Assembly: GCF_003075455.1 (NCBI RefSeq)
Contig: NZ_QDAE01000002.1
Location: 1 to 64,000 of the forward strand
Direction of reading: 5' to 3'
DNA from: Arthrobacter sp. Bz4
Lineage (GTDB): Bacteria > Actinomycetota > Actinomycetes > Actinomycetales > Micrococcaceae
DNA length: 64,000 nucleotides
The translations under genes and the position numbers were made by a program. Positions 8,077 through 22,486 of this stretch are shown piece after piece. Below the pieces are notes generated by a model. It did not search any database. It was not told the origin of the DNA and saw only the letters and a program-made list of their open reading frames with translations. Every line of letters begins with the position of its first letter. Position 1 is the stretch's first letter.

Positions 8077-8093
8077 CGGGTCTTATGGCACTG
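8077..8093 (+). promoter_or_regulatory. DosR-like box 1 (response regulator promoter)
   Basis: The core GGGTCTTATGGCAC (8078-8091) matches the 14-bp motif repeated at five promoters in this region. It lies about 57 bases upstream of the regulator start and about 110 from the divergent SDR start. This fits autoregulation of the response regulator. The match to mycobacterial DosR boxes (GGGACTTNNGTCCC-like) is from knowledge of that motif. Confidence 0.6.
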
Positions 8094-8147
8094 CTGTTCG
8101 AGAGTGTCGCCACCGATGATTGAACAACTGACCGATGATGAAAGACG

Positions 8148-8807
8148 ATGATGACGCTAGAAACGCCCGAGCCAACCCGACCGGTCACGGTCTTCCTTCT
8201 GGATGACCATGAACTGGTCCGACGTGGGCTTCGGGATCTCCTGGAGGGCGAAGGGTTTGCTGTCATAGGCGAAACCGGGTCTGCTGCTGAGGCAGTTCGC
8301 CACATTCCAGCCCTGGCACCCGATGTGACCATTCTGGATGCCCGCCTCGCCGACGGAAACGGGATCGAGGTGTGCCGTGATGTCCGGTCAGTGGACCCGT
8401 CGCTGCAGTGCGTGATCCTCACCAGTTACGACGACGACGACGCCGTACGGGGCGCCATCCTGGCTGGCGCTGCCGGCTACATTCTCAAGGAAATTGTCGG
8501 ATCGGACCTTCTGGAGAAGGTGCGTCGTGCAGCCAACGGGGAGTCGCTGTTCGATGAGGACGTCAAGGCACGGGTTATTGCCGGTTTCACCGCCGTGCAG
8601 CCCGAGGACCCGCGCCTCGCGGGCCTGACCGTCCAGGAGAAGAAGGTGCTGGCGCTGATCGGGGCCGGGATGACCAACCGGGAAATTGGCGCCGAACTGT
8701 TCCTGGCCGAGAAGACCATCAAGAACTACGTGTCCTCCGTGCTGGCAAAACTCGGGTTCCAGCGCCGGACACAGGCGGCCGTCTACATTTCGCGCCCGCG
8801 CACCTAG
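8148..8807 (+). CDS. DosR/DevR-like NarL-family response regulator
   Basis: A 219-residue two-component regulator. The receiver domain carries the acidic pair DD (residues 19-20), the phosphoacceptor aspartate in VTILDARLAD (Asp64) and the conserved lysine in YILKEIVG. The C-terminal LuxR helix-turn-helix reads LTVQEKKVLALIGAGMTNRE and FLAEKTIKNYVSSVLAKLG, followed by FQRRTQAAVY. This is very close to the DosR DNA-binding domain as I recall it (FLAEKTVKNYVSRLLAKLG, RRTQAAV). It should activate genes from the 14-bp boxes found at five nearby promoters. Its kinase partner is most likely the DosS-like gene at 8959-10626, encoded on the opposite strand rather than in an operon. The first of two in-frame ATGs is used. 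Confidence 0.9.
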   Translation: MMTLETPEPTRPVTVFLLDDHELVRRGLRDLLEGEGFAVIGETGSAAEAVRHIPALAPDVTILDARLADGNGIEVCRDVRSVDPSLQCVILTSYDDDDAVRGAILAGAAGYILKEIVGSDLLEKVRRAANGESLFDEDVKARVIAGFTAVQPEDPRLAGLTVQEKKVLALIGAGMTNREIGAELFLAEKTIKNYVSSVLAKLGFQRRTQAAVYISRPRT

Positions 8808-8874
8808 CCCGCCCGGCCCTCCAGTCCCGGTCAGCCCGACTGTTCCGCGCGCCGCGGTCCTCTAACCCGTTCCG

Positions 8875-8947
8875 GTGGGCAACCTGGACATCGGTGCCCA
8901 CAATCTCCACCCAAAACGCCCAGGTTGACGCGGTCTGTCCAGGTTGC
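8875..8947. terminator. Overlapping hairpins between convergent regulator and kinase
   Basis: The 12-base arms GCAACCTGGACA (8879-8890) and TGTCCAGGTTGC (8936-8947) pair perfectly over a 45-base loop. A second, competing hairpin uses GTGGGCA (8875-8881) and TGCCCAC (8895-8901). The two share bases, so they are mutually exclusive. The position between two convergent stop codons favours a bidirectional terminator. Confidence 0.5.
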
Positions 8948-8958
8948 TCACCGGATCG

Positions 8959-10626
8959 TCAGCTCAGGGGCAGTATCACGTCGATGGTGGTGCCGTGGCC
9001 CAGGGAGGATTCGATCCTGACCTCTCCGCCGAGTTCCTCAGCCCGCTGCTGCATGTTCCGCAGCCCACTGCGACGCCCGGTCTGCTCGAATCCCTGGCCG
9101 TTGTCAGCGATCCGCAGGTTGACTGAATCCGTGCTCGCAGACAGCGTCACCATGATGGTGGTGGCCTGAGAATGTTGCAGCGCGTTGGAGAGTGCTTCCC
9201 GAAGGATTGCTTCCACATGGGCCGCCGTCGCCACCCGGACCACGGTGTCGAGTGGTCCGGAGAAGTGGATGACCGGTTCGACGTCGGAACCGTCGAGGGA
9301 CCGGCGGACAAGCGCGAGGATCCGTGAGCTCAGACTGTCCTCGCTGTTCGTCACCGATTGCAGCGAGTAGATCGTGGCCCTCAGTTCACCGATGGTCGCG
9401 TCGAGCTCAGTAGTGACGGAAGCGATCCGGGCGAGGGGCTCATCCCCGACCACATGCTTTCGAAGACTCTGGATACTGAGTCCGGCGGCGAACATCCGCT
9501 GAATGACCAGGTCGTGGAGGTCCCGGGCAATCCGGTCCCGGTCTCCGAAGACGGCGTCCTGTTCGCGCTGGATCTGCATCTGGGTCAGTTCCAGGGCCGT
9601 GGAAATCTGGGAGGCGAACGCGGCAACCATTCGCTGATCCACGGGCGAAAACGGCGGATCATCCTTGGTGCGGGCAATGACCAGGAACCGGGCGTGGCTG
9701 CCCCGGTCGGTGATCCGGGTGTACATGGCGGCGTCGAACACATCGGGCTCTGAATTGGGCAGCACGTCCTGGAGGTCGCGCCCGTTGAGAACTGCTGTAT
9801 CCCTGAACGGAAGCGTTACCTTGCGGAGGGCCGTCCCGTCACCCACAAGCCGCCCGCGAAAACTGTCGCCGTGCAGGCCGAGAGCCACCTCGCAATACAA
9901 GGCCTCGTCGGGCGCCATCCGGGTAAGGATGAGGATTAGGGATGCGCCGGAGGCAGCCTTCGCGTGTTCGGCAACGATCTCCACATCGCTGAGGTTCAGC
10001 TCCGAGGAGGAGTTCAGGAGCGCCTGAACCGCATCCTGTCCGCATTCCAACCATCGGGAACGTCTCGTCTCAGCTTCGAAGAGGCGCATGTTTTCGATGG
10101 CCACCCCGGCCGCCGCCGCGAGGGCAACCGTCAGATCCTCATCGGACTGGGAGAAGTCCCCACCGCCGTTCTTTTCGGTCAGATACAGGTTGCCGAAGAC
10201 CGTGTCGCGCACCCTGATCGGCACACCGAGGAAGGACGTCATCTGGGGATGACCCGCTGGGAACCCGAAGGATGCGGGGTGTTGGCGGAGGTCTTCGAGG
10301 CGAAGTGGTTTCGGCTCGCTGATAAGCAGCCCGAGCACCCCGTGTCCTACGGGCAGTGCACCGATCTGGCTGATCTGGTCCCCGTCGAGGCCCACGGTGA
10401 TGAAATGACTCAGTACTCCGTCCGGACCGATAACACCAAGGGCCGCGTACTTCGCGTCCACCAGCCGGCAGGCCGCCTCCACCACCCGTTCCAGCACGGT
10501 CTGCAGACCCTGGTTTTCCGCGATGGCAGCGAATCCTGCCAGCAGATGGTCAATTTCCCCCGCGGACTTCAGCGGAGGGGGCACGTCATCGGGATCTGTG
10601 ACTGGGGTGGTTCGGATGGGACTCAT
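8959..10626 (-). CDS. DosS/DevS-like GAF-GAF sensor histidine kinase
   Basis: A 555-residue cytosolic kinase with two GAF domains (about 40-185 and 205-350), a HisKA_3 dimerisation domain and an HATPase_c domain. The first GAF contains GFPAGHPQM with His126, which aligns with His149, the proximal haem ligand of mycobacterial DosS; FLGVPIRVRDTVFGNLYLTEK around it is also close. The phosphoacceptor is His371 in RDRIARDLHDLVIQRMF. The ATPase boxes NALQHSQA, IADNGQGFE and SGLRNMQQRAEELGG are intact. Haem binding and sensing of oxygen, NO or CO, or of redox state, are inferred from this match. It ends 152 bases from the convergent regulator gene and probably shares the 10713-10729 box region with the divergent PNPOx gene. 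Confidence 0.9.
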   Translation of the reverse strand: MSPIRTTPVTDPDDVPPPLKSAGEIDHLLAGFAAIAENQGLQTVLERVVEAACRLVDAKYAALGVIGPDGVLSHFITVGLDGDQISQIGALPVGHGVLGLLISEPKPLRLEDLRQHPASFGFPAGHPQMTSFLGVPIRVRDTVFGNLYLTEKNGGGDFSQSDEDLTVALAAAAGVAIENMRLFEAETRRSRWLECGQDAVQALLNSSSELNLSDVEIVAEHAKAASGASLILILTRMAPDEALYCEVALGLHGDSFRGRLVGDGTALRKVTLPFRDTAVLNGRDLQDVLPNSEPDVFDAAMYTRITDRGSHARFLVIARTKDDPPFSPVDQRMVAAFASQISTALELTQMQIQREQDAVFGDRDRIARDLHDLVIQRMFAAGLSIQSLRKHVVGDEPLARIASVTTELDATIGELRATIYSLQSVTNSEDSLSSRILALVRRSLDGSDVEPVIHFSGPLDTVVRVATAAHVEAILREALSNALQHSQATTIMVTLSASTDSVNLRIADNGQGFEQTGRRSGLRNMQQRAEELGGEVRIESSLGHGTTIDVILPLS

Positions 10627-10712
10627 TGTGCGACTCCAGTGAGTTGAACCCTGGCCTTCGATTCGTTGTCGTGGTGAAAATGAAGGAGCATACGGAGGCT
10701 GACCCGGCGGAT

Positions 10713-10729
10713 TAGGTCTTCCGGCCCTA
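10713..10729 (+). promoter_or_regulatory. DosR-like box 2 (PNPOx / kinase promoter)
   Basis: The core AGGTCTTCCGGCCC (10714-10727) matches the repeated motif except at the first position. It lies 36 bases upstream of the PNPOx start at 10763 and about 90 bases upstream of the divergent kinase start. It is positioned to activate the PNPOx gene and possibly both. Confidence 0.6.
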
Positions 10730-10762
10730 GTGGTGCGGGGCGTCCGACCTTACTGTCGGGCT

Positions 10763-11212
10763 ATGGACTCCGAGAATACACCCACATCCGTTTTACCGGC
10801 CCACACCTGTTGGGAGCTATTGCGCGGCACCGCCTACGGTCGGATGGCCCTGTGCGTCGACGGACAGCCCGAAATTTTCCCCATCAATGCGCAGGTAGAC
10901 CACGGAACGCTGGTGTTCCGTACCTCTGAGGGATCAAAACAGCGGGCAGCCGAAGGCGCTCCGGTGGCGTTCGAGGCCGATGGTGTCCTGCAGGACGGGT
11001 CACGAGCCTGGAGCGTGGTCATCAAAGGGAATGCATCAACCATTCAACGCACCGCCGAACTGATGTCCACGATCCACCTTCCTCTACACCCGTGGGAGCC
11101 CGGGCGGAAGGACCGCTTTATGCGGATAGTGCCCACGAGTGTCACCGGTCGGAGCTTCGACGTTACGCCTGCCCCCCAGCTGCAGGAGATGCCGGTAGCG
11201 AGCGAAGAGTAA
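10763..11212 (+). CDS. PNPOx-fold flavin-binding family protein
   Basis: A 149-residue split-barrel protein of the pyridoxamine 5'-phosphate oxidase-like superfamily. The core reads ELLRGTAYGRMALCVDGQPE, then IFPINAQVDHGTLVFRTSEGSK, then a VVIKGNAST strand and LPLHPWEPGRKDRFMRI. Members bind FMN or F420 and act as oxidoreductases or haem-degrading proteins; the same small type occurs repeatedly among DosR-controlled genes. I chose the ATG at 10763 (MDSENTPTS) over the upstream frame extension because the DosR-like box lies just before it. The last 50 bases overlap the 3' end of the convergent universal stress gene. A paralogue is encoded at 22487-22936. Confidence 0.82.
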   Translation: MDSENTPTSVLPAHTCWELLRGTAYGRMALCVDGQPEIFPINAQVDHGTLVFRTSEGSKQRAAEGAPVAFEADGVLQDGSRAWSVVIKGNASTIQRTAELMSTIHLPLHPWEPGRKDRFMRIVPTSVTGRSFDVTPAPQLQEMPVASEE

Positions 11213-12050
11213 CTACCAGGGTGGGGCACGGTGGAGCTAGCAGCAGCGTGTGAGTCACTGAGCCCAGCATAATTCCCGGTCGGGCACCCCGACCGTGCCG
11301 CCCAATCACCAGCAGGAACGCGTCAGCGGCGTGGAACAGGAGGGACTCCACGGGTGGCCGCTCGTCATCGAGAACCCTTGTTACGGTGAGCGACGGATAG
11401 GTTACCTTCAGTTGCGCGAGCACCGAAGCGGTTCCGCTGACCTCCGGAGCTGTGGTATCTGTCGCTGAGGTGACGACTTTGAGCCCGTGACCCGACCGGC
11501 TGGCTTCGGCCGCTGCCACGCGCAACGCGTCGTGCGATTCCGCCGAGCCATCGACACCCACCACCACGTCGCCGTCGTTGTCGGAGCCGGCGCTGGGGTC
11601 ACGCGGGATCACTGCTACCGGAGAGGTGCTGCCGAGGGCTACCTGCTGCCCGACGGATCCGAGGTATTCGCCCGTCTTTCCGTCCAGCCGGTCAGCACCA
11701 ACAACGAGGAGCGATGCATCCTCGGAGAGGCTGACCAGGGCGTCCACGATGTCGCCGCAATGCACGTTGGCGGTGACGTGTGCGTCGGGATAGTCGGCGC
11801 ACACCTTCCGGGACTCCTCATCGAGCGCCTGGCGAGCCGCAGCGATCAGGCTGCCGTACGGTGTCCCACCCGCTGCCACGGGGAGCATGAGTGACGGGTC
11901 GGGAAGGGCATGCAGCATCGTAATGTGCTGCCCGGTTTGGTGGCCGCGCCGCACGGCCCAGCGCAGAAGCGCCGGGCCGGTCAGCCCGTCCCGGAAGGCG
12001 ACGACGATGGGCCGGTCCTCGGCGAAGTCAGCGCCTGCTGTGTCGCTCAC
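11163..12050 (-). CDS. Tandem-domain universal stress protein
   Basis: A 295-residue protein with two UspA domains. The first (about 14-150) ends with VVGADRLDGKTGEYLGSVGQQVALGSTSPVAVIP. The second (about 160-290) ends with VIGRHGRGARPGIMLGSVTHTLLLAPPCPTLVV and keeps the G-2x-G-9x-G-S ATP-binding pattern, which is weaker in the first domain. These proteins support survival under hypoxia or redox stress. The start is the GTG at 12050, overlapping the alcohol dehydrogenase stop as GTGA, so it is the third gene of a usp-adh-usp operon. Its 3' end overlaps the convergent PNPOx gene by 50 bases. Confidence 0.88.
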   Translation of the reverse strand: MSDTAGADFAEDRPIVVAFRDGLTGPALLRWAVRRGHQTGQHITMLHALPDPSLMLPVAAGGTPYGSLIAAARQALDEESRKVCADYPDAHVTANVHCGDIVDALVSLSEDASLLVVGADRLDGKTGEYLGSVGQQVALGSTSPVAVIPRDPSAGSDNDGDVVVGVDGSAESHDALRVAAAEASRSGHGLKVVTSATDTTAPEVSGTASVLAQLKVTYPSLTVTRVLDDERPPVESLLFHAADAFLLVIGRHGRGARPGIMLGSVTHTLLLAPPCPTLVVTLRSLPASPAAGGQA

Positions 12051-13096
12051 GAGGTGGTGCTTTCGGGGACGATGACCGCGCGGCCGCGAAGCGTTCCGGC
12101 CCGGAGCCGCTCATAGGCCGTAGGTCCATCGGACAAAGAAAACTGCTCGTACTCGACGTGGATTTTCCCCACTCGAGCCAGTTCCACCACTTCCATCAGC
12201 TCTGCTCTGGATCCCCAGTAGGGGGCACGTGCCTGGGCGTCCCACGGCGTGGAGAAGAAACCGACGTCGACGGTGCCCACTCCAACCCCCACAACGGCAA
12301 TGTCCCCACCGATTCCGACCACCCGGGACGCGAACCCCGTGGTGACGGGAGTACCCACAAAGTCGAAGACCGCGGTGGCACCCTTGCCGCCGGTAAGAGT
12401 CCGGATCTGCGCCTCGGCCTCCTCCCCGGGGGCCAGCACATGGTCGGCGCCGACGTCGAGCGCGAGAGCACGTTTCTGCTCTGAGGTGTCAATGGCGATG
12501 ATGGTCGCCGCGCTCAGCGCCTGAAGGATCTGGACACCGACGTGGCCGAGCCCGCCTACGCCGATGACCACCGCCGTCGAGCCTGGGACCAGTTTCGGCA
12601 GGCTCTGCTTGATGGCGTGGTACGGGGTCAACCCGGCATCGGTGAGTGACACGCTGGCCACCGGGTCGAGGTCGCCGAGGGGCACCAGATGCCGGGGGTC
12701 GTCGACCAGGATGAACTCGGCCATGGCGCCCGGCGCGCCGAGGCCCGGGGGTGCGATCCCCTGCTCTGCCGCTACCTCGCAGTAGTTCTCGTTGCCTTGG
12801 GCGCAGGTATAGCAGCGCCCGCAACCCCACGGACCGTAGACGAGCATGGAGTCACCCACCTGGAGCCCGGTTACCCCGGCACCCCAGGATTCGACGGTGC
12901 CTGCGCCCTCGTGGCCAAGCGTGAGCGGCAGACCATAGATGTACTGGTCCGCGGGAAGATCCATGATGAATTGGTCGGAATGGCAGACACCGGCCGCGGT
13001 TACGCGCAGCAGGACTTGTCCGGGTCCGGGGACTGGGGTGGGAATGTCAACGAGTTCAGGGGCCGATCCGACTGTGCGATAATGCAGCGCCCTCAC
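12047..13096 (-). CDS. Zinc-dependent alcohol dehydrogenase (operon member)
   Basis: A 349-residue medium-chain NAD-dependent dehydrogenase. Visible elements are the catalytic zinc site AAGVCHSDQFIM, GHEGAGTVESWG, the structural zinc cysteines in GCGRCYTCAQGNENYC, and the Rossmann loop GVGGLGHVGVQIL followed by the NAD-type acidic residue in IAIDTSEQK. It should reoxidise NADH by reducing aldehydes, or oxidise alcohols, useful when respiration is limited. I chose the GTG at 13096 (VRALHYRTVG) because it overlaps the preceding usp stop as GTGA, indicating translational coupling; the longer frame from 13150 runs inside the usp gene. It is flanked on both sides by usp genes. Confidence 0.9.
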   Translation of the reverse strand: MRALHYRTVGSAPELVDIPTPVPGPGQVLLRVTAAGVCHSDQFIMDLPADQYIYGLPLTLGHEGAGTVESWGAGVTGLQVGDSMLVYGPWGCGRCYTCAQGNENYCEVAAEQGIAPPGLGAPGAMAEFILVDDPRHLVPLGDLDPVASVSLTDAGLTPYHAIKQSLPKLVPGSTAVVIGVGGLGHVGVQILQALSAATIIAIDTSEQKRALALDVGADHVLAPGEEAEAQIRTLTGGKGATAVFDFVGTPVTTGFASRVVGIGGDIAVVGVGVGTVDVGFFSTPWDAQARAPYWGSRAELMEVVELARVGKIHVEYEQFSLSDGPTAYERLRAGTLRGRAVIVPESTTS

Positions 13097-13551
13097 GCGT
13101 GATCCTCGGGCATTTCCCCTGTTGAACCCTCGACCACGAGGACAGGGCATTTTGCGTGGGCCACGCAGGCGCCACTGACCGATCCCATGAGCAGGCCTCT
13201 GAAAGTACCGTGCCCACGGCGTCCCAGGACGAGCATCACCGCTCCCTCAGCCGCCTTGACCAGCCCTTTGGACGGGTGGGAAAAGAGTACGACCTTCTCC
13301 AACCCCTCAGGCGGGTCATCCCCGAACGCTGATTGCACAGCAGTATCGAGGTGTTTGTGGGTGATTTCCTCGAAGTTGTCGCTACCGATCGGCACATAGC
13401 CTGCGTACTCTGGCGGGTAATCCCAGGTGCTGACCGCCTGGATCACCGCGTTGAATGGTGGTGCAAGTTTCCGGGCGAAACGCAGTGCGGCAATCGATTG
13501 CTCGGAGCCGTCAACTCCGACGACGATGCGGGGTGAGGTAGATGCTTCCAT
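13093..13551 (-). CDS. Universal stress protein, single domain
   Basis: A 152-residue UspA-family protein. It opens with IVVGVDGSEQSIAALRFA, the first strand and helix of the fold, and ends with VLGRRGHGTFRGLLMGSVSGACVAHAKCPVLVV, which has the complete ATP-binding pattern (G-2x-G-9x-G-S). It is the first gene of the usp-adh-usp operon, with a strong GGGAGG ribosome-binding site before the ATG. A DosR-like box lies 76 bases upstream of its start, inside the end of the ATPase gene. Its 75-base leader is clearly related to the leader of the ATPase gene (see 13552-13626). Confidence 0.9.
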   Translation of the reverse strand: MEASTSPRIVVGVDGSEQSIAALRFARKLAPPFNAVIQAVSTWDYPPEYAGYVPIGSDNFEEITHKHLDTAVQSAFGDDPPEGLEKVVLFSHPSKGLVKAAEGAVMLVLGRRGHGTFRGLLMGSVSGACVAHAKCPVLVVEGSTGEMPEDHA

Positions 13552-13626
13552 GATGTGCCTCCCGTGTCAGCGCGGCAAGGTTGCAGCTGCTTCCTTCAGT
13601 CTCACCCGCACTTGCTCGTGAGCGTT
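13552..13626 (-). promoter_or_regulatory. Leader of usp operon, similar to the ATPase leader
   Basis: The untranslated leader on the transcript contains GCAGCTGCAACCTTGCCG followed by CGCTGACACGGGAGG. The leader of the ATPase gene has GCTGCTGCAATCCTGCCG and GTGCTGACGAGAGAGG in the same positions, with 15 of 18 bases identical in the first block. The distance from the start codon to the DosR-like box is the same in both. This points to duplication of a promoter plus leader. Confidence 0.65.
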
Positions 13627-16117
13627 AGGGTCTTAGGGCCCGTTCTGGGGTGTCATCGGGCGCGGCGAGGAGCCGCCGGTGGTGCCGGAACAGGATTTCA
13701 ATAGCTATTCCACCCAGCAGTGCGACGACGCCCGACGCCACGAGATGGTTCCACCCCGGCACGGTGAAGTCGAAGAAGTCGCTGAGCAGGGGCACCGTCA
13801 GCACCAGCCCCAGCCCCACGAACATCGCCCCGATGATCAGCACCCGCCAGCGGTTCAGCGGACGTGACAGGACAACCAACACCCATAGTGCGATCAACGC
13901 CAAAACCAGAGCGGCGGCGGTCCGCACCTCAGCGGTGGTGCCGGTGTCTGTCCACCGCGAATAAGTGTTGATGGCGACGACGGCGAGCGCAATGATGAGC
14001 CCCGCCGGTATGGCAAAGGACAGGGAACGCTTCAAGAATCCGCTGCGGTAGCGGCGGGTGTTGGGCATCAACGCCAGGAAGAACGCAGGAATACCAATGG
14101 TGATTCCATCAGTGGCCGACAGCTGCCGGGGCAGGAAGGGGAAGTCCCAGAGCAGCGCTCCGAAGGTTATCGAGAGAATGACCGCGTAGGCCGTTTTGGC
14201 CAAAAACAGCATCGATACGCGTTCAATGTTGGCGATCACCCGGCGCCCCTCGGCGACGACGCCCGGGAGCCGGTCGAACCGACCATCCAGCAGCACCAGC
14301 CGTGAGACGGCCTTTGTGGCGGCGGCGGCCGAGTCCATGGCAATACCAATGTCGGCTTCCTTCAGGGCGAGCGCGTCGTTGACGCCGTCGCCGGTCATCG
14401 CCACAACGTGCCCGCGACGTTGCAGGGCAATGACCATGCCCTTCTTCTGGGCCGGCGTCACCCGGCCAAAGACCGTGTGGTGCTGCATCACTTCGGCCAA
14501 CTCTTCGGGATCTTCGGGAAGCTCCCGGGCGTCGAAGCCTGCGTCCGTGGCCACGCCCACCTCCCGTGCGACCGCTGCGACGGTTCGGGGGTCGTCACCG
14601 GAGATGATCCTCAGCGAGACGCCCTGCTCCGTGAAGTAGGCGAGCGTCTGGGCGGCGTCTGACCGGACCTGCTCACGAAAGGTCAACAGGGCCACCGGGG
14701 CGGGGTCGGCTGGAAGCACCGCTTCATCATCATTCTGGACCGCTGGTGGAGTGGGTGCATAAGCCAGAACGAGGGTGCGCAGACCGGAACCAGCAAGACG
14801 CGAGGCGGCGTCCAGCGCTTCCCGTGCCGCCGGGGTGCTCGACGTGCTCGACTCCAGCACGATCTCCGGGGCGCCCAGGAGCCACGTTCCGGCTGCTGGT
14901 GTGCCGTCGGGAAAACTGACCGCACTCCATTTCCGTGCAGAGGAGAACGGCACCGATGCGACCGGGCTGAGCGAACCGTCGTCGTCGAAGGCGTCGGCCA
15001 GACACCGGGCGGTGGCGTTGGCGTTCGGGTCTGCCCCGAACCAGCCAAGAGCCTGTTTCCATCCCTCTTGGGGGGCGGTCCCAATTTTGTGAACCTCGTC
15101 GAAGACGATCTTCCCCGCGGTCAACGTTCCTGTCTTGTCGAGGCATAGGACGTCCACCCGGGCCAGTCCCTCGACAGCCGCCAGTTCCTGAATGAGCACG
15201 TTCTGCTGGGCCAGGCGCACGGCTCCCACGGCAAAGGCGACGCTTGTCATGAGCACCAGCCCCAAGGGGATCATGGCGATGACGCTGGCGACGGCACCCA
15301 CCGCGCCTGTTCTCCAGGCGCCGGTGGTGATCGCCTGTTCCCATCCGCCCTGGCTTTGCATCTGACCGTTGACCACAATGGCCATCACGGGCAGCAGCGC
15401 GAAGGTGATCCAACGCAGGACCTGGTTCAGGCCCTGCCTGATTTCTGAGTGAACCAGGGAGAAGCGTTTGGCTTCGGCGGTCAGACGGCTGGAGAAGGAG
15501 TCAGCGCCGACTCGGTTGACTATCGCCCAAGCCTGCCCGCTCACAACGCTGGAGCCCGACAACACCTCATCATCGATCACCTTGTCGACAGGTTCTGATT
15601 CTCCGGTCAGCAAAGATTCGTCGATCTCAAGACCCTCGGCCTCCAGGATCACCGCATCGGCGGGGACCTGATCCCCGGCGCGGAGTACCAGAATGTCGTC
15701 CTTGACGACGTCTTTGACGTCGACGTCCTGGACCGTGCTGTCCCTGAGGACCCTTGCCCGTGGGGCGTTCAGAACCGCGAGACGGTCAAGGGATTTCTTG
15801 GCTTTGAACTCCTGCACGACGCCGATCAGCGCGTTGCCGACTGCAGCGAACCCGAACAGCGCATCCCGCCACTGTCCGAGGAAGAGGAGCAGTAAAAAGC
15901 TGCCCGCAACAATGGCGTTGAAGAGCGTCAGGACGTTGGCCCTGAAGATGTCCCAAAGGCTACGGCTCGATTGGTCCGGGACGTTGTTGGTCTGACCGGA
16001 TTCGACACGGACAGCGACGTCGGCGGCGGAGAGCCCTGTTCGTTCGGCGACCTGCGCCAAGTGTTTGGGGCCCGATTGGCCCTTGTGGCGTTGATCCACT
16101 GCTTCAGCTGCTTCCAT
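13625..16117 (-). CDS. P-type cation-transporting ATPase (CtpE-like)
   Basis: An 830-residue P-type ATPase. In order it shows the actuator-domain motif LLTGESEPV (about 170), the M4 region VASVIAMIPLGLVLM, the phosphorylation motif CLDKTGTLT (about 325), the hinge/Mg motif MTGDGVNDALALKEADIGIAM, and four C-terminal helices. The N-terminal AERTGLSAADVAVRVESGQTN resembles the cation-ATPase N-terminal domain. The IPLGL in place of the classic IPEGL, together with overall resemblance, points to the CtpE group, reported to handle calcium in mycobacteria; ion specificity is not certain. The ATG at 16117 has AGAGG upstream. Box 4 lies between it and the divergent arsR-sulP pair. It is followed on the same strand by the usp operon. 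Confidence 0.88.
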   Translation of the reverse strand: MEAAEAVDQRHKGQSGPKHLAQVAERTGLSAADVAVRVESGQTNNVPDQSSRSLWDIFRANVLTLFNAIVAGSFLLLLFLGQWRDALFGFAAVGNALIGVVQEFKAKKSLDRLAVLNAPRARVLRDSTVQDVDVKDVVKDDILVLRAGDQVPADAVILEAEGLEIDESLLTGESEPVDKVIDDEVLSGSSVVSGQAWAIVNRVGADSFSSRLTAEAKRFSLVHSEIRQGLNQVLRWITFALLPVMAIVVNGQMQSQGGWEQAITTGAWRTGAVGAVASVIAMIPLGLVLMTSVAFAVGAVRLAQQNVLIQELAAVEGLARVDVLCLDKTGTLTAGKIVFDEVHKIGTAPQEGWKQALGWFGADPNANATARCLADAFDDDGSLSPVASVPFSSARKWSAVSFPDGTPAAGTWLLGAPEIVLESSTSSTPAAREALDAASRLAGSGLRTLVLAYAPTPPAVQNDDEAVLPADPAPVALLTFREQVRSDAAQTLAYFTEQGVSLRIISGDDPRTVAAVAREVGVATDAGFDARELPEDPEELAEVMQHHTVFGRVTPAQKKGMVIALQRRGHVVAMTGDGVNDALALKEADIGIAMDSAAAATKAVSRLVLLDGRFDRLPGVVAEGRRVIANIERVSMLFLAKTAYAVILSITFGALLWDFPFLPRQLSATDGITIGIPAFFLALMPNTRRYRSGFLKRSLSFAIPAGLIIALAVVAINTYSRWTDTGTTAEVRTAAALVLALIALWVLVVLSRPLNRWRVLIIGAMFVGLGLVLTVPLLSDFFDFTVPGWNHLVASGVVALLGGIAIEILFRHHRRLLAAPDDTPERALRP
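13627..13643 (-). promoter_or_regulatory. DosR-like box 3 (usp-adh-usp operon)
   Basis: The core, on the plus strand, is GGGTCTTAGGGCCC (13628-13641). It overlaps the last codons of the upstream ATPase gene. It lies 77 bases before the usp start codon, the same distance as box 4 from the ATPase start. Confidence 0.65.
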
Positions 16118-16192
16118 GGGGTACCTCTCTCGTCAGCACGGCAGGATTGCAGCAGCTTTCTCCAGTGTGCACTCTGACTGCCTCGCTGAGTA
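16118..16192 (-). promoter_or_regulatory. Leader of ATPase gene, similar to the usp leader
   Basis: On the transcript this leader carries GCTGCTGCAATCCTGCCG and GTGCTGACGAGAGAGG. It aligns through its length with the usp leader at 13552-13626, including the sequences nearest the DosR-like box. No riboswitch class is recognised. Confidence 0.65.
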
Positions 16193-16208
16193 AGGGTCTT
16201 TGTACCCC
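16193..16208. promoter_or_regulatory. DosR-like box 4 (ATPase / arsR-sulP)
   Basis: The core GGGTCTTTGTACCC (16194-16207) is an imperfect palindrome matching the shared motif. It lies 77 bases before the ATPase start and 51 bases before the divergent arsR start, so it may serve both directions. Confidence 0.65.
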
Positions 16209-16257
16209 TCTTGAATGATAGAATCATCAAATAGTCAATTAGTTGGAGTGAAGGTCA

Positions 16258-16647
16258 ATGAAGGATTCACCACCGGAGTACGCCGACTTCCGCGCACCCC
16301 TCTACGAAGTAAAGGCGAACCTCTTCAAGGGACTCGCCCATCCCGTCCGGATCCGCGTCCTGGAACTTCTCTCAGCCGCACCCGAGGTCTCGGTCTCGGA
16401 TCTGTTGACGGCGACAGGCTTGGAGGCCTCTCATCTCTCCCAGCACCTATCGGTGCTGCGACGCTACCGACTGGTGAAGTCGGAGCGGCGCGGACTCCAG
16501 CAGTTCTACACCCTTGCCGATCCGCTGGCGGCGGAACTGCTCGCGGTAGCCCGGGGACTCCTCCAGAACGTGCTCAACGCCACGAAGGAAGACCTTGAGT
16601 ACTCGACGGCCACCGGATCCACCACTGTCGACGGAGACAACAGATGA
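16258..16647 (+). CDS. ArsR-family winged-helix regulator
   Basis: A 129-residue regulator with a typical ArsR/SmtB winged helix: LFKGLAHPVRIRVLELLSAAPEVSVSDLL, then the recognition helix region LEASHLSQHLSVLRRYRLV, and a wing at SERRGLQQFYTLADP. There is not a single cysteine, so the classic metal sites (ELCVC) are absent; it may sense another ligand or redox partner, or act as a constitutive repressor. It is divergent from the ATPase gene and overlaps the following sulP gene by four bases (ATGA). The pair is therefore one unit, and this protein probably controls it. Confidence 0.88.
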   Translation: MKDSPPEYADFRAPLYEVKANLFKGLAHPVRIRVLELLSAAPEVSVSDLLTATGLEASHLSQHLSVLRRYRLVKSERRGLQQFYTLADPLAAELLAVARGLLQNVLNATKEDLEYSTATGSTTVDGDNR

Positions 16648-18296
16648 GGATCCTCCCGACAGTCCGGGCACTGCTCCCTTCGGTCCGGGACTACGCCCAG
16701 CTGCCCCGGACCTGGCGGGGTGACCTCATCGCTGGCCTGACGGTCGGAATTGTGGCACTGCCGTTGGCGCTCGCGTTCGGGGTCAGCTCCGGCGCGGGCG
16801 CCGCCAGTGGCCTCATCACCGCAGTGGTAGCGGGTCTGGTGGCGGCAATCTTCGGAGGCTCCCACGTTCAGGTGTCCGGTCCTACCGGTGCGATGGTCGT
16901 GGTGTTGGGTCCAGTCATCGCCTCGCATGGGATCGAGGCGCTGGCCTTGGTGAGCGTCCTCGCCGGCGTGATGGTGGTCGCGGCGGGTGTGTTGAAGCTG
17001 GGACGGGTGGTCTCGTTCTTGCCGTGGCCCGTCATTGAGGGCTTCACCCTCGGCATCGCCATCATTATCTTCCTGCAGCAGGTGCCAGCCGCCATCGGTG
17101 AGGATGCGGGGCCAAGCAGCAATGCGGCCGTTTCTGCACTTCAGGCCGCAGGGACCGCCTCAACGGCCGAGTTTCTGGCAGCCGGGGCGCTCGTTGCGGT
17201 GGTGGCTCTCATCATGATCGGCGCACCGCGGCTCCACCATCGCCTTCCGGGCTCCCTTATCGCCATCATCGCAGCGAGTGTGATGGCTGAACTGCTGGCG
17301 ATGCCGGTCGCGCGGATCGGGGCCCTCCCCGATTCCCTGCCGGCACCCACGGTGCCGGGCTGGGACTGGGAATTGGTGATTGTACTGACCGGACCGGCAG
17401 CAACCATCGCCATTCTCGCGGCGATCGAGTCCTTGCTTTCCGCCCGGGTTGCCACCTCGATCTCCGACACCGGCTCCTATGACGCGGACCGGGAGCTTTT
17501 CGGCCAGGGCCTGGCATCGGTGGCGTCCGGGTTTTTCGGCGGCATGCCCGCCACCGGTGCGATTGCCCGCACAGCCGTGAATATCCGCTCGGGAGGGCGC
17601 ACCCGGTTTGCGGCAATCACGCACGCCTTCGTTTTGCTCTTTGTGGTCTATCTGGCGACCGGCCCCGTGGCGCGCATCCCCCTGGCTGCCCTGGCTGGAG
17701 TGCTGATGGTGACGGCCGTCCGGATGGTCTCACTTTCCACCCTGCGCAGCGTGGTGGGCTCAACCCGCGGAGACACTGTGGTCCTGATCGTGACAGCAGT
17801 CGTCACGGTTTCCTTCGATCTGATCCAGGCGGTGGGAATCGGCGTGCTGGTGGCCGCGTTCTTCGCCCTACGTGCCCTGGTCAAGTCCGGCGGGGTGCAC
17901 CGGGAGGAAATCTCCGGTCCAGTCCAGGACGGCGACTCAAGGATCGCCGTCTACCGGATCGAGGGAGCTCTTTTCTTTGCTGCCGCCGAGCGGGTCCTGG
18001 AACGGGTCAGCGACATCGAAAATGTTGAGGTGGTGATCATTCGAATGTCTCAGCTGCAGTCGCTGGATGCGACCGGCGCAAGGGTGATCGCGGATCTCGT
18101 CAATACCCTGGAGCGCCGCGGCATTACAGTTCTGGTCAAGGGAGTCCAGGATCGTCATCTGCGACTCATTACCCGGGTTGGCGTCCTTGAATCTCTTCGT
18201 CACCACAACCACCTCTTTACCGCCCTGGAACCCGCCGTGGAACATGCCCGCAGCCACGTCGCCCGAAACCGGGAGGCGCCGGACACCACCCCCTGA
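16644..18296 (+). CDS. SulP family anion permease with STAS domain
   Basis: A 550-residue SulP/SLC26-type transporter. About 11-12 helices span residues 25-420, with the family motif GDLIAGLTVGIVALPLALAF near the N-terminus and GGSHVQVSGPTGAMVVVLG and GGMPATGAIARTAVNIRSGG downstream. A cytoplasmic STAS domain occupies about 430-530 (SRIAVYRIEGALFFAAAERV, MSQLQSLDATGARVIADLV). Substrates in the family are sulfate, bicarbonate or dicarboxylates, and I cannot choose. SulP proteins occur in mycobacterial DosR-linked regions too. It is co-transcribed with arsR through a four-base overlap. A 16-bp tandem repeat overlaps its stop codon and a hairpin follows. Confidence 0.88.
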   Translation: MRILPTVRALLPSVRDYAQLPRTWRGDLIAGLTVGIVALPLALAFGVSSGAGAASGLITAVVAGLVAAIFGGSHVQVSGPTGAMVVVLGPVIASHGIEALALVSVLAGVMVVAAGVLKLGRVVSFLPWPVIEGFTLGIAIIIFLQQVPAAIGEDAGPSSNAAVSALQAAGTASTAEFLAAGALVAVVALIMIGAPRLHHRLPGSLIAIIAASVMAELLAMPVARIGALPDSLPAPTVPGWDWELVIVLTGPAATIAILAAIESLLSARVATSISDTGSYDADRELFGQGLASVASGFFGGMPATGAIARTAVNIRSGGRTRFAAITHAFVLLFVVYLATGPVARIPLAALAGVLMVTAVRMVSLSTLRSVVGSTRGDTVVLIVTAVVTVSFDLIQAVGIGVLVAAFFALRALVKSGGVHREEISGPVQDGDSRIAVYRIEGALFFAAAERVLERVSDIENVEVVIIRMSQLQSLDATGARVIADLVNTLERRGITVLVKGVQDRHLRLITRVGVLESLRHHNHLFTALEPAVEHARSHVARNREAPDTTP

Positions 18297-18324
18297 GGCA
18301 GCGTCCCTCTGAGGCAGCGTCCCG
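18293..18324 (+). repeat. Tandem 16-bp repeat at the sulP stop
   Basis: The unit CTGAGGCAGCGTCCC plus one base occurs twice head to tail (18293-18308 and 18309-18324). The first unit contains the stop codon of the permease gene. Confidence 0.7.
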
Positions 18325-18334
18325 CAGTATTGAA

Positions 18335-18363
18335 GGCCGGGACCAAAGCCTCTGGCCCCGGCC
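18335..18363 (+). terminator. Hairpin after sulP
   Basis: Arms GGCCGGGACC and GGCCCCGGCC pair over ten bases with one mismatch and a nine-base loop. It is the likely terminator of the arsR-sulP unit. It partly resembles a degenerate DosR-like box (GGGACC-AAAGCC), which I treat as weak. Confidence 0.5.
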
Positions 18364-18406
18364 GGCTTCCTGATGCATGGTGGGAGGACAACAAGAGGGG
18401 GCAACC

Positions 18407-18859
18407 ATGGAAGACAAGTACATCGTCGTCGGGGTCGACGGCTCACCATCGTCAGTTCTCGCACTGCAGTGGGCGGAGCGGCTTGTACCAACCGTCGCCA
18501 CCTCGATCCGGGCTATTGCCGCCTGGCAGGTCCCCTTCACCTACTACGAATTCCCGGTCTCCGGGTGGGATCCAAAGAGCGTTGCCAAAACCATCCTGTC
18601 CAATGCGTTGGAGAAAGCGTTCGACGGCGAACCGCCCGCCCATGTCACGGCACTGACCCGGCAGGGCCCACCAGCCGGAGTGCTGATTGACGAGAGTCGT
18701 GCCGCGCAGATGCTGATCGTCGGGAGTCGGGGACACGGCGGTTTCGTCGGACTGCTTCTGGGATCCGTGAGTTCGGCCGTTGCCGAGCATGCATCCTGTC
18801 CGGTACTGATCGCCCATGGCCCGGAAACATCACCCCCTAATGAAAGTAGTAATGAATGA
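18407..18859 (+). CDS. Universal stress protein, single domain
   Basis: A 150-residue UspA protein opening with YIVVGVDGSPSSVLALQWAERLV and ending with VGSRGHGGFVGLLLGSVSSAVAEHASCPVLIA, the complete ATP-binding pattern. The ATG at 18407 has AGAGGGGG before it; the longer frame from 18377 is unsupported. It overlaps the next usp gene by four bases (ATGA), so the two are translated together. No strong DosR-like box lies upstream, only a degenerate one in the hairpin. Binding of ATP and a stress-survival role are family knowledge. Confidence 0.9.
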   Translation: MEDKYIVVGVDGSPSSVLALQWAERLVPTVATSIRAIAAWQVPFTYYEFPVSGWDPKSVAKTILSNALEKAFDGEPPAHVTALTRQGPPAGVLIDESRAAQMLIVGSRGHGGFVGLLLGSVSSAVAEHASCPVLIAHGPETSPPNESSNE

Positions 18860-19707
18860 AGAACAGCATCGTTGTTGGCTACGACGGTTCAGCTCAGTCC
18901 CGCACAGCACTCGAGTGGGCGGTGGCGCAGGCGATGCTGGAACACCGCACCCTCCATCTGGTGCACTGCTGGATCTGGCCCCTGTTCACTGACGATCTGG
19001 GGCCGGTCGAGGGCGTCGCCGACAGCGGATTGCGGCATGCGGCGGAGGCGATCGTCGCAGAGGGGGAAGCCGAAGCGCGACGGCTCGCTCCCGAGCTGGA
19101 CCTGAAGGCGAGCCTCATCTCGGGGGTTTCATCGGCAATCCTGGACCGGATGTCACGCAACGCCCACCTGGTGGTGGTCGGAAGCCGCGGACTGGGTGGG
19201 TTCATGGGCCTGCTGGTCGGTTCGGTCAGCCTCAAACTCGCTAATACGGCGTCCTGTCCTGTGGTGGTGGTGCGTCAGCAAACCGATGCAACCGGATCAG
19301 TGCTGATCGGCCTTGATGGCTCCCCGAAAAGCGATACTGCACTGGACGACGCCATCGCCCTCGCCGCCCTATGGAAAGCTCCGCTCAAGCTCATACACGT
19401 GCGCGACGACATCCGCCTGTTCGGACGGAATCACTCCTACCCCGGCTCGGATGTGAGAGCTATGCAGATCCTCGCCGCCGCCGCGCTTCGAGCCCGCGCC
19501 GCCGCCCCGGGCGTGGAGATCGAATCCGTGCTGGTGACTGGCCATTCGGTGGCCGGCACAATCCTGGAAGCCGCCGAGTCCGCGCGCATTGTGGTGGTAG
19601 GCGAGACGGGGCAGGGCAATTTTATGGGTGCTGTCGGTTCGACGGCCCAAGCCATTCTTCATCATGCCAAGGGGAACATTCTGATCTCCCGGCGCCCCCG
19701 GACCTAG
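18856..19707 (+). CDS. Tandem-domain universal stress protein
   Basis: A 283-residue protein with two UspA domains. The first domain ends with VGSRGLGGFMGLLVGSVSLKLANTASCPVVVV. The second, beginning SVLIGLDGSPKSDTALDDA (about 150), ends with VGETGQGNFMGAVGSTAQAILHHAKGNILIS. Both keep the G-2x-G-9x-G-[ST] nucleotide-binding motif. Start and stop codons overlap with the preceding usp gene. It is the last gene of the unit and is closed by the hairpin at 19722-19743, which also serves the convergent phosphoketolase gene. Confidence 0.9.
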   Translation: MKNSIVVGYDGSAQSRTALEWAVAQAMLEHRTLHLVHCWIWPLFTDDLGPVEGVADSGLRHAAEAIVAEGEAEARRLAPELDLKASLISGVSSAILDRMSRNAHLVVVGSRGLGGFMGLLVGSVSLKLANTASCPVVVVRQQTDATGSVLIGLDGSPKSDTALDDAIALAALWKAPLKLIHVRDDIRLFGRNHSYPGSDVRAMQILAAAALRARAAAPGVEIESVLVTGHSVAGTILEAAESARIVVVGETGQGNFMGAVGSTAQAILHHAKGNILISRRPRT

Positions 19708-19721
19708 GGCGACGGGAGATG

Positions 19722-19743
19722 GCCCACCCTAGCCAGGGTGGGC
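19722..19743. terminator. Bidirectional hairpin between usp and phosphoketolase
   Basis: The nine-base arms GCCCACCCT (19722-19730) and AGGGTGGGC (19735-19743) enclose AGCC. The hairpin lies between two convergent stop codons. Confidence 0.7.
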
Positions 19744-19757
19744 ATGGTCCACCCTGA

Positions 19758-22124
19758 CTAGGAACCAGCCGTCCACTGCCAGTTCCTGACCTCCGGCAGA
19801 TCCTCACCAGCCGTCCTGATGTACTGATGGTGCTGGATCAATTTGTCCTTCAGCTCTTCCCTGACATGGGAGGAAACGTCCCGGAGCCGGGGCACCCGGT
19901 CGATGACGTCGATGGCCAGATTGAACCGGTCAATCTGGTTCATCACGCACATATCGAATGGCGTGGTCGTGGTGCCCTCTTCTTTGTAGCCGCGCACGTG
20001 GAAGTTGTTGTGGTTCGTGTGGCGGTAGGTCAGTCGATGGATCAGCCAGGGGTAGCCGTGGTAGGCGAAGATGACAGGTTTATCCTGGGTGAATACGGCA
20101 TCGAACTCCACGCTGGAGAGCCCATGCGGATGGCTGCTCTGGTCCTGGAGCCGCATCAGGTCCACCACATTGACCACCCTGATCCGCAGGTCAGGGAAGT
20201 GGTGTTGCAGGATCTCGACGGCGGCAAGGGTCTCCATCGTCGGCACATCCCCGGCGCAACCCATGACGACGTCGGGTTCCTGCCCTGCGTCGGAGCTCGC
20301 CCACTCCCAGATACCGACGCCCTTGATGCAGTGCTGGATTGCTGACTCCATGTCCAGATACTGCAGTTGAGGCTGCTTGCCTGCCACGATGATGTTCACG
20401 TACTGGCGGCTGCGCAGGCAGTGGTCGGCGACGGACAGCAGGGTGTTGGCGTCCGGTGGAAGGTACACGCGGATCACGTCGGCTTTCTTGTTGACCGCAT
20501 GGTCAATGAAGCCGGGGTCCTGGTGCGAGAAACCGTTGTGGTCCTGACGCCAGACGTGGGACGTCAGCAGGTAATTCAACGAGGCGACGGGCCGGCGCCA
20601 CGGGATGTCGTTGGTGGTGCTCAGCCATTTGGCGTGCTGGTTGAACATCGAATCGACCACGTGGATGAATGCTTCATAGCAGGAGAAGAAGCCGTGCCTG
20701 CCGGAGAGGAGATACCCTTCCAGCCAGCCCTGGCACGTGTGTTCGGACAGGATTTCCATCACCCTGCCGTCCGGCGCGAGATGGTCATCCCCGGGGACGA
20801 CGTCGGCGTTCCAGGTCCTGTCCGTGGCTTCGAGCACGTTGTCCAACCGGTTGGAGTTGTTTTCGTCCGGGGCGAAGACCCTGAAGGACTCCATGTTGCC
20901 GGTCATGACGTCCCGGAGGAAAGTTCCGAGCACCCTCGTCGATTCGACGGCCCCGGTTCCCGGCGATCCGATGGAAACCGCGTAATCACGGAAGTCTGGC
21001 ATCTGCAGGTCCCGGAGCAGAATCCCCCCGTTGGCGTGGGGATTGGCGCTCATCCGTCGCGCGCCTTCTGGGTGAAGGCCGCGGATGGCGGGAACCGGCA
21101 CGCCGTCGTCGTCGAACAGTTCCTCCGGCCGGTAGCTGCGCAGCCACTTCTCCAGGATCTCGCGGTGCGCCGGGTTTTCGCGGGCGCCGCTGAAGGGCAC
21201 CTGGTGTGCACGCCAGGTGCCTTCCACCTTGACGCCGTCGACGTCGGCGGGTCCGGTCCAGCCCTTCGGCGAGCGCAGCACGATCATGGGCCACAGCGGG
21301 CGCTCGGTTTCACCCTCGGTGCGTGCCCGGCTCTGAATGTCCCGGATCTCATCAAGGCAGGTATCCAGCACGCGGGCAAAGTCCTGGTGCATTTGTTCCG
21401 GGTCGGAGCCTTCCACGTAGTACGGGGTGTGGCCGTAGCCGCGCAGCAATCCGTCCAGTTCTGCATGGCTGATTCTGGCCAGAATCGTGGGGTTGGCAAT
21501 CTTGTAGCCGTTCAGGTGCAGGATCGGCAGCACCGCCCCATCCCGTCGGGGATCGACGAACTTGTTGGAGTGCCAGCTGGCCGCGAGCGGGCCGGTCTCC
21601 GCTTCGCCGTCGCCGATGATCGCCGCGACCGTGAGGTCCGGGTTGTCGAATGCGGCTCCGTAGGCGTGGGACAGGGCGTAACCCAGCTCGCCGCCCTCGT
21701 GGATTGAGCCAGGGGTTTCCGGAGCCACGTGGCTGGGGATCCCACCGGGGAAGGAGAACTGGTGGAAGAGGCGCCGCATCCCGGCCCCGTCCCAGGAAAT
21801 ATCCGGGTACGTTTCGCTGTACGTCCCCTCAAGCCAGGCCGATCCGACAGCCGCAGGACCGCCGTGGCCTGGCCCCATGATGTAGATCATGTCCAGATCC
21901 CGGGCCATGATGGCCCGGTTCAGGTGCGCGTAAATGAAGTTCAACCCCGGGGTGGTCCCCCAGTGGCCGAGCAACCGGGGCTTGATGTGTTCGGGCTGCA
22001 GTGGCTCCCTCAGGAGCGGGTTGTCCATCAGGTAGATCTGCCCCACCGAAAGATAGTTGGCTGCACGCCACCAGGCGTGGATGTTCGATAATTGGGCAGG
22101 ATTCAGGACCGGCTGCTGGCTCAT
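19758..22124 (-). CDS. xfp: Xylulose-5-phosphate/fructose-6-phosphate phosphoketolase
   Basis: A 788-residue thiamine-diphosphate enzyme that cleaves xylulose 5-phosphate (and fructose 6-phosphate in many members) with phosphate to acetyl phosphate plus a triose or tetrose phosphate. Signature regions are N-terminal [20 protein letters not shown], then [18 protein letters not shown], the [10 protein letters not shown] loop, and [20 protein letters not shown] followed by the ThDP-binding [11 protein letters not shown]. The length matches the family. In the DosR-like context it would give acetyl phosphate and ATP without glycolytic NADH, useful at low oxygen. It is transcribed away from the PLDc_N gene, with DosR-like box 5 about 37 bases upstream of its start. 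No acetate kinase gene is adjacent. Confidence 0.95.
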
Positions 22125-22160
22125 GAATTTAAGCCTGCGCCCCCGAATGGCACCTGATCC

Positions 22161-22176
22161 AGTGCCGAAAGACCCT
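22161..22176. promoter_or_regulatory. DosR-like box 5 (xfp / PLDc_N-PNPOx)
   Basis: On the minus strand the core reads GGGTCTTTCGGCAC (plus-strand 22162-22175). It is 37 bases from the xfp start and 36 from the divergent gene start at 22212, nearly central. A short palindrome GTAGTCCCTGAGACTAC follows at about 22186-22202. Confidence 0.65.
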
Positions 22177-22211
22177 TATCCGTTGGTAGTCCCTGAGACT
22201 ACGGTGGGCAG

Positions 22212-22448
22212 ATGGATACCAAGCACAAAGGTAAGAAGTCCCGGAAGTGGAGCGACCTCACCGCCCGGCAGCAGACGGTCACCCTGGTGATGGGTTCCAT
22301 CCAGCTTTCACTCGCGGCCACCGCGTGGACTGACCTGGCCAAACGGCCAGCAGCTCAGGTGAACGGGCCCAAGCTGATGTGGACTGCGATCATCGCGATC
22401 AACTTCATCGGCCCGGTCCTCTACTTCCTCAAAGGGATCCGCCGCTAA
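22212..22448 (+). CDS. PLDc_N-like small membrane protein
   Basis: A 78-residue protein with a basic N-terminus (MDTKHKGKKSRKW) and two likely membrane helices (about 25-42 and 55-73). The C-terminal signature IIAINFIGPVLYFLKGIRR resembles the phospholipase D N-terminal membrane domain seen in short actinobacterial proteins. These are thought to be membrane anchors or signalling parts; none is well understood. It follows box 5 and is 38 bases upstream of the next PNPOx gene on the same strand, so both may be induced together. Confidence 0.7.
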   Translation: MDTKHKGKKSRKWSDLTARQQTVTLVMGSIQLSLAATAWTDLAKRPAAQVNGPKLMWTAIIAINFIGPVLYFLKGIRR

Positions 22449-22486
22449 TTCCTGAACCCGATCAGCCCTCGCGAAAGAAGGCCCTC

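Follow-up and report, generated by a model that had tools for sequence, protein, structure and literature searches.

The first 64,000 nucleotides of contig 2 of Arthrobacter sp. Bz4 (NZ_QDAE01000002.1; genome of 3.41 Mb in 80 contigs), referred to below as the window, carry a 14-kb module of genes whose promoters are marked by a 14-bp near-palindrome, found first at the gene of a DosR-like response regulator. A sequence-only reading had proposed five copies of this box as DosR-type operators beside such a regulator; the analysis supports this proposal, and the five boxes are very probably operators. A sixth box at 18339 shares their promoter geometry, and it is highly likely that all six sites are operators of a two-component system of the DosR/DevR/OsdR type. 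The case is based on clustering, position, conservation and promoter geometry, and not on raw counts. By their DosR proteins, the nearest named relatives of the strain are Arthrobacter sp. 260, H5 and H20 (92–93%).

The boxes and an independently learned motif

The five proposed sequences are present at the coordinates given for them, and their distances to the genes are those claimed: 56 bp to dosR, 35 to PPOx1 (ATG 10763), 76 to usp152, 76 to ctp and 37 to xfp. It had also been held that no other promoter copy exists, which has to be revised given the sixth box, GGGACCAAAGCCTC at 18339–18352, lying before usp160 with the same geometry, and the further boxes at promoters outside the window. 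The boxes, scored with a position weight matrix (PWM), and the −10 elements predicted behind them are the following.

8078–8091, plus strand: DosR box of dosR, GGGTCTTATGGCAC; PWM 13.7, window rank 3; identical at −56 in relatives L082 and L083
8115–8120, plus strand: predicted −10 element GATGAT for dosR; ANNNT at offset 24 from the 14-bp box
10714–10727, plus strand: DosR box of PPOx1, AGGTCTTCCGGCCC; PWM 8.1, rank 12, the weakest of the six
10751–10756, plus strand: predicted −10 element TACTGT for PPOx1, 6 nt before the ATG; predicted leaderless
13628–13641, minus strand: DosR box of usp152-adh-usp295, GGGCCCTAAGACCC (read with the gene); PWM 16.0, rank 2
13598–13603, minus strand: predicted −10 element GAGACT for usp152; ANNNT at offset 25
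16194–16207, minus strand: DosR box of ctp, GGGTACAAAGACCC (read with the gene); PWM 12.1, rank 4
16164–16169, minus strand: predicted −10 element CACACT for ctp; ANNNT geometry
18339–18352, plus strand: sixth DosR box, before usp160-usp283; PWM 11.8, rank 5; same sequence in L001
18376–18381, plus strand: predicted −10 element CATGGT for usp160; ANNNT geometry
22162–22175: DosR box, possibly bidirectional, GGGTCTTTCGGCAC towards xfp (minus) and GTGCCGAAAGACCC towards a small open reading frame (ORF) and PPOx2 (plus); PWM 16.1, rank 1; ANNNT at offset 25 on both sides
22132–22137, minus strand: predicted −10 element CAGGCT for xfp, 7 nt before ATG 22124; predicted leaderless
22200–22205, plus strand: predicted −10 element TACGGT for the small ORF, 6 nt before ATG 22212; predicted leaderless

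The matrix comes from a palindromic motif of width 16 trained on the dosR upstream regions (at most 300 bp) of 27 relatives (L084–L110), leaving out the own genome and two relatives at least 90% identical. The learned consensus AGGGCCGATCGGCCCT, which was forced to be symmetric, reached a log-likelihood ratio of 202 against 65–87 in five shuffled sets (80 restarts for the real set, 20 for the shuffled sets). The weight lies on the outer letters, since at the four central positions the letters are nearly tied or flat. The learned string is the one published for OsdR with MEME (PMC5069765), and the 16-bp palindrome AGGGNCNNNNGNCCCT expected of a DosR/OsdR regulon was found upstream of the targets. 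In the window the matrix places 22162, 13628, 8078 and 16194 in ranks one to four, 18339 fifth and 10714 twelfth. The 16-bp form AGGGNCNWWNGNCCCT is a better consensus than the GGGTCTTNNGGCCC of the sequence-only reading.

The latter pattern, allowing one mismatch, occurs 32 times in the genome. Five of the 32 matches fall in the window and four of these in the module, where a density equal to that outside the window would give about 0.11 (Poisson P 6e-6). Site 16194 has two mismatches to it.

Promoter geometry and target assignment

In all six boxes the 14-bp core is followed, after 24–25 nt, by a −10 element of the form ANNNT. This geometry was noticed first on the boxes of the own genome. 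Among the 19 window sites with a PWM score of at least 7 it occurs in six, namely the five proposed earlier and 18339, and in none of the 13 others, a comparison of 6/6 with 0/13 that is only descriptive because the rule was noticed partly on own-genome sites. In the family loci, ANNNT was more frequent at offset 24 than at any other of the 64 offsets (36% of 86 flanks, mean 3.9%), and this offset also came first among the 64 in 75 additional loci, almost all of them labelled actinobacterial (22% of 305 flanks, mean 2.5%; 31% of 128 flanks at a stricter threshold). These flanks come from related genomes and are mutually dependent, and the family set includes the matrix-training regions, the −10 element lying outside the training. 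In sequence, the proximal box overlaps the −35 region at a fixed distance from the −10 element. In M. tuberculosis the proximal DevR site likewise overlaps the −35 element (PMC3029386), and the −10 element of M. smegmatis is ANNNT (PMC6448022).

A second ANNNT peak appears at offsets 46–47 in L006–L080, which would fit tandem boxes spaced by about 22 bp at many promoters. Paired boxes were seen in many of the relatives' dosR/universal stress protein (USP) regions, at the PPDK gene of L111 and in L128, L129, L130 and L134; the window module has single boxes.

From the spacing, each box can be assigned to its target. On geometry, dosS was rejected as the target of 10714, which is assigned to PPOx1, and the divergent dehydrogenase gene sdr as that of 8078, assigned to dosR. 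The gene arsR was likewise discarded for 16194, where the geometry exists on the minus strand only and leads to ctp. The box at 22162 possibly serves both sides, that is, xfp and the 78-aa ORF with PPOx2. With the predicted −10 element at 18376–18381, the likelier start of usp160 is ATG 18407. The −10 hexamer ends up 6–7 nt before the start codon in three cases, PPOx1, xfp and the small ORF, so that their messages are predicted to be leaderless; the same is predicted for the PPOx and PPDK genes on contig C3 and for an ATPase gene on C14. The offsets of the DUF4389, C3 and C14 promoters were read by eye.

A broader formulation is somewhat favoured by these data. Across Actinobacteria the promoters would follow a strict grammar (14-bp core, 24 or sometimes 25 nt, ANNNT); much of the Arthrobacter regulon would be leaderless, with the box centred about 42–45 bp before the start; the kinase gene would stand outside the regulon; and a single box may serve both directions, as at 22162. 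The predicted leaderless set comprises two PPOx genes, phosphoketolase, PPDK, one ATPase and the small ORF.

Conservation in relatives

The positions of several boxes are kept in relatives, whose gene starts were taken from a simple picker based on ORFs and GC3. Among L001–L003, the dosR box is found at −56 in L001. The usp152 box is kept at −75/−76 in L001–L003, and that of xfp at 36 bp in L183 and L184. The PPOx1 box lies at −36 in L002 and L003, and the box of L004 at the same position differs in sequence, still being a near-palindrome. In the set of 20 relative loci, a box precedes PPOx1-type genes by 35–36 bp in 7. In many of the more distant family loci, boxes, often paired, stand in the region that separates dosR from a divergent USP gene.

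At a PWM score of at least 11, box plus geometry was found in the 20 relative loci for 11/21 PPOx, 13/34 USP and 3/5 xfp genes (one of the three xfp cases being a 100-aa piece), and for 4 of 202 genes without a homologue in the module, some of which may be true targets. Pooling PPOx, USP and xfp against these unmatched genes gives a Fisher P of 3e-16. The ratios exclude the dosR training regions, in which dosR itself has box plus geometry in 14 of 20 relatives, and some boxes were counted for two divergent genes.

Regulator and sensor kinase

8148–8807, plus strand: DosR/DevR/OsdR-type response regulator, 219 aa; Response_reg and GerE domains (Pfam); best PDB match DevR 3c3w
8959–10626, minus strand: DosS/DosT-type sensor kinase, 555 aa; Pfam domains, N-terminal GAF domain like that of DevS; convergent with dosR

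The regulator contains receiver and GerE domains and, among solved proteins, is closest to DevR (3c3w, E 2.9e-62, 213 bits), followed by VraR (E 6.9e-35, 124 bits), as expected for a member of the DosR/DevR/OsdR group. The phospho-acceptor Asp, which is Asp54 in DevR (PMC3029386), is kept (ILDARLADG aligned to VLDVRLPDG). The near-identical DNA-binding helix noted earlier beside the first box was found as EKTIKNYVS, against EKTVKNYVS in DevR. The DNA-contacting Lys and Asn residues of this helix, K179, K182 and N183 in DevR, are kept.

NarL-family proteins bind related palindromes, and some genomes of the genus hold two or three close matches to the regulator. The boxes could in principle be bound by another NarL/LuxR-type protein, dosR being merely one of its targets. 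Such an arrangement is improbable, as the own genome has one match to the regulator at E ≤1e-60, the relatives carry the box in front of dosR itself, where the motif was learned, and the box corresponds to the OsdR consensus, binding of OsdR to such sites having been shown by electrophoretic mobility shift assay (EMSA; PMC5069765). The regulator encoded at 8148–8807 is the preferred candidate. As a separate observation, the Micrococcaceae genomes G031, G278, G084, G121 and G175 hold three to five regulator matches at E ≤1e-60, and in such genomes multiple regulators could divide the regulon.

The first GAF domain of the kinase is closest to 2vzw (DosT; E 4.7e-48) and then to the DevS GAF domain 2w3d (E 1.5e-43). 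His126 (in GHPQM) and Tyr148 are located at positions aligned to the GAF domains of the DevS group; they may have the roles of the aligned residues, the proximal haem histidine of DosS being His149. Low oxygen would be the inducing signal. A DosR-like DNA binding that answers to another cue (nitric oxide, redox state of the electron chain or starvation) and not to oxygen is rather unlikely, although it has an argument in the signal of OsdR being unconfirmed and DevS having been described as a redox sensor (PMC5069765); opposed to it are the kinship of the N-terminal GAF domain with the DevS/DosT group and the aligned His and Tyr.

The genes dosR and dosS are convergent and thus not arranged in a shared operon, a difference of gene order and not of protein identity. 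No box with geometry was found for dosS (8959–10626) in the window, nor for any of 19 dosS genes in the relatives (PWM at least 11).

Target genes within and beyond the window

10763–11212, plus strand: PPOx1, PF12900 (pyridoxamine oxidase-like; Pfam), start set at ATG 10763
11163–13551, minus strand: probable operon of usp152 (13093–13551), a Zn-alcohol dehydrogenase gene (12047–13150) and usp295 (11163–12050); Pfam
13625–16117, minus strand: P-type cation-transport ATPase ctp, 830 aa; domain searches
18377–19707, plus strand: universal stress proteins usp160 and usp283; domain search
19758–22124, minus strand: phosphoketolase xfp, 788 aa; domain searches
22212–22936, plus strand: 78-aa ORF (22212–22448), without NCBIfam match, followed by PPOx2 (22487–22936)

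Operons were presumed from spacing and strand. No structured RNA was found in the window at Rfam gathering scores.

The usp152 box sits in the 3′ end of the ctp ORF (13625–13641), and in L001 and L183 usp152 has its box at the same distance, yet beside arsR rather than ctp. The leaders of usp152 and ctp (13548–13641 and 16114–16207) have equal length from box to start codon. Outside the box they are identical at 46 of 76 positions, against a mean of 20 and a maximum of 34 in 2000 shuffles, and the 60 bp beyond the boxes are unlike (14/60). The two leaders are perhaps a duplicated promoter-leader cassette.

Boxes with geometry were also found on two other contigs of the genome.

C3:102358: USP gene
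C3:103328: PPOx gene
C3:106365 and 106400: PPDK gene
C14:50126 and 50184: P-type ATPase and USP genes
C14:2458 and 2537: USP and P-type ATPase genes
C14:44037: PPOx gene
C14:40754: DUF4389 gene, offset 25

The sites C11:4325 and C3:194285 are less certain; a multicopper oxidase gene lies near the second of them. On C14 a third regulon island was seen (L181, C14:34000–53999, with L182); it holds the genes of DUF4389, a HAD-GH65 fusion, PPOx, P-type ATPases and USPs. Another GH65 protein is encoded there too, as is a fusion of a histidine kinase with DUF4153.

An unbiased view was obtained by examining every USP and PPOx gene detected genome-wide, with 24 USP domain matches grouped by hand into 15 genes and a cut-off of PWM 11 or more for USP. 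A box with geometry lies directly before 6 of the 15 USP genes, and two more would be reached by a presumed operon, the USP genes being main targets as in DosR/OsdR regulons. The five PPOx genes are either directly behind such a box (three) or in a presumed operon with one (two). Two of the directly boxed ones score at least 13, and PPOx1, at 8.1, is below the scan cut-off. As background, none of 3000 windows of 350 bp, drawn only from 26–64 kb of the window, gave a hit at PWM 9 or more.

Chance controls and opposing observations

A number of observations weigh against a DosR regulon marked by these boxes. The first group concerns frequency. With up to three mismatches, GGGTCTTNNGGCCC is rarer in the window than in shuffles (85 against 115), and genome-wide, with at most one mismatch allowed, it has 32 matches where the reversed pattern has 50. 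Other patterns gave the same result (264 against 498, 22 against 31 and 35 against 64), as did box plus −10 element (34 against 78). Genome-wide counts therefore carry no support for the motif, the patterns being rarer than their reversed controls. Window sites at PWM thresholds of 9.5, 11.5 and 13.5 number 7, 5 and 3, with means of 9.9, 2.1 and 0.5 and maxima of 16, 7 and 2 in 30 shuffles, and six sites without promoter-like features outrank 10714. Of 29 pattern-chosen sites outside the window, which are part of all matches (the L111 sites being counted apart), 23 are inside predicted genes; the L128 site is probably among them because the predicted start is too early. In 12 further stretches retrieved by the box-plus-−10 search, a site between predicted genes with the geometry was present in only two. 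For scanning the genome, the earlier consensus was accordingly rejected. Single matches such as 49783, which has one mismatch to that pattern and is absent from the 19 window sites of PWM 7 or more, are probably due to chance.

The second group concerns genes and proteins. The dosR box, at up to one mismatch, is missing from L002 and L003, and 6 of 20 relatives have no box plus geometry at dosR at a PWM score of 11 or more. In the relatives ctp is weaker (2/10) and adh (1/13) is not above background. Seven of the 15 USP genes of the own genome lack a box with geometry, two of the seven showing a lone box. HSP20 (alpha-crystallin) is a classic DosR target in mycobacteria, and the two boxes before an HSP20 gene on C30 (L134:2522 and 2569) do not have the exact −10 spacing, which makes this gene a doubtful target. 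No NCBIfam equivalog model was passed by the regulator or the kinase; the best model for the regulator was MadR (154.5 bits; cut-off 300), and no DosR model was among the 25 of 79 NCBIfam matches listed.

If the sites were chance GC-rich near-palindromes picked by eye, their scarcity relative to shuffles at three mismatches, the genome counts below the reversed controls and the 23 of 29 sites within predicted genes would be readily understood. The same explanation would leave aside the independent learning of the motif, the clustering in the module, the conserved positions in relatives and the peak of −10 spacing, and it is very improbable. These findings weigh heavily against chance at the six window sites.

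Proposed mechanism

The kinase (8959–10626) would sense O2, NO, CO or the redox state through a haem-binding GAF domain and would phosphorylate the regulator (8148–8807), whose phosphorylated dimer would bind the 16-bp palindrome. With the box at a fixed distance from the −10 element, it would overlap the −35 region, and the regulator would act as a class II activator. Several target messages are predicted to start directly at the initiation codon or beside it. The putative targets would be, in the window, dosR and the genes for USPs, PPOx, P-type ATPase, alcohol dehydrogenase (by operon) and phosphoketolase, and outside it PPDK, DUF4389 and more USP, PPOx and ATPase genes. By analogy with mycobacteria and Streptomyces, the regulon would move a respiring cell to an energy-saving, non-growing state as oxygen falls, the USPs acting in stress, the ATPases on ions, and phosphoketolase and PPDK in an energy-saving carbon flow, with the PPOx proteins as part of the set.

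A well-studied dormancy switch would in this way extend to soil relatives of Arthrobacter. The box-to-−10 spacing would predict targets, direction and start codons from sequence alone, and the presence of phosphoketolase and PPDK in one regulon suggests how these respiring bacteria may rework carbon and phosphate metabolism once oxygen is exhausted.

Comparison with known systems

The five boxes had been said to define a regulon outside mycobacteria. Such a DosR-type regulon is already known in Streptomyces, the OsdR box of S. coelicolor having been published in 2016 (PMC5069765). In that work the box was predicted upstream of osdR and of USP-ADH-USP, PPOx and PPDK genes, and binding was shown by EMSA for tested sites, a USP probe included. 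With boxes already predicted at osdR, USP-ADH-USP, PPDK/USP and PPOx, the Arthrobacter system joins a known kind. Among the matches listed in open-licence PMC (titles and abstract openings), no DosR-box regulon was found for Arthrobacter or Micrococcaceae.

Both systems share the 16-bp consensus and a box at the regulator gene; the order usp152-adh-usp295 is that of SCO0200-SCO0199-SCO0198, and S. coelicolor has PPDK beside USP (SCO0208/0207) and PPOx (SCO0214) (PMC5069765). They differ in the boxes found in Arthrobacter at phosphoketolase, at three P-type ATPase promoters and at DUF4389, targets that Table 1 of PMC5069765 does not list, and in the spread of the Arthrobacter targets over at least three contigs. 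Nitrate reductase targets belong to the OsdR regulon (PMC5069765).

The DosR/DevR-DosS/DosT system of M. tuberculosis provides the closest solved regulator and sensor domains, and it shares the proximal site overlapping the −35 element (PMC3029386). It differs in its Rv3134c-devRS operon, whereas dosS of Arthrobacter is convergent and has no box with geometry. USP and ATPase targets are part of the M. tuberculosis DosR regulon as well. At position 4 of the half-site, Arthrobacter often has T or C where the mycobacterial motif has A. The M. smegmatis DosR motif is GGGACTTNNGNCCCT in its strict form and RRGNCYWNNGNMM in its weak form (PMC6448022). The earlier GGGTCTTNNGGCCC equals this motif except that position 4 is T in place of A and that one N has become a fixed G. 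The strict form is set apart from it by this position 4 and by a looser second half-site; the −10 element is ANNNT in both organisms (PMC6448022). To the known system Arthrobacter would add, as judged from the DNA, a spacing rule across actinobacteria, a predicted leaderless set, a phosphoketolase target and a kinase gene placed outside the regulon.

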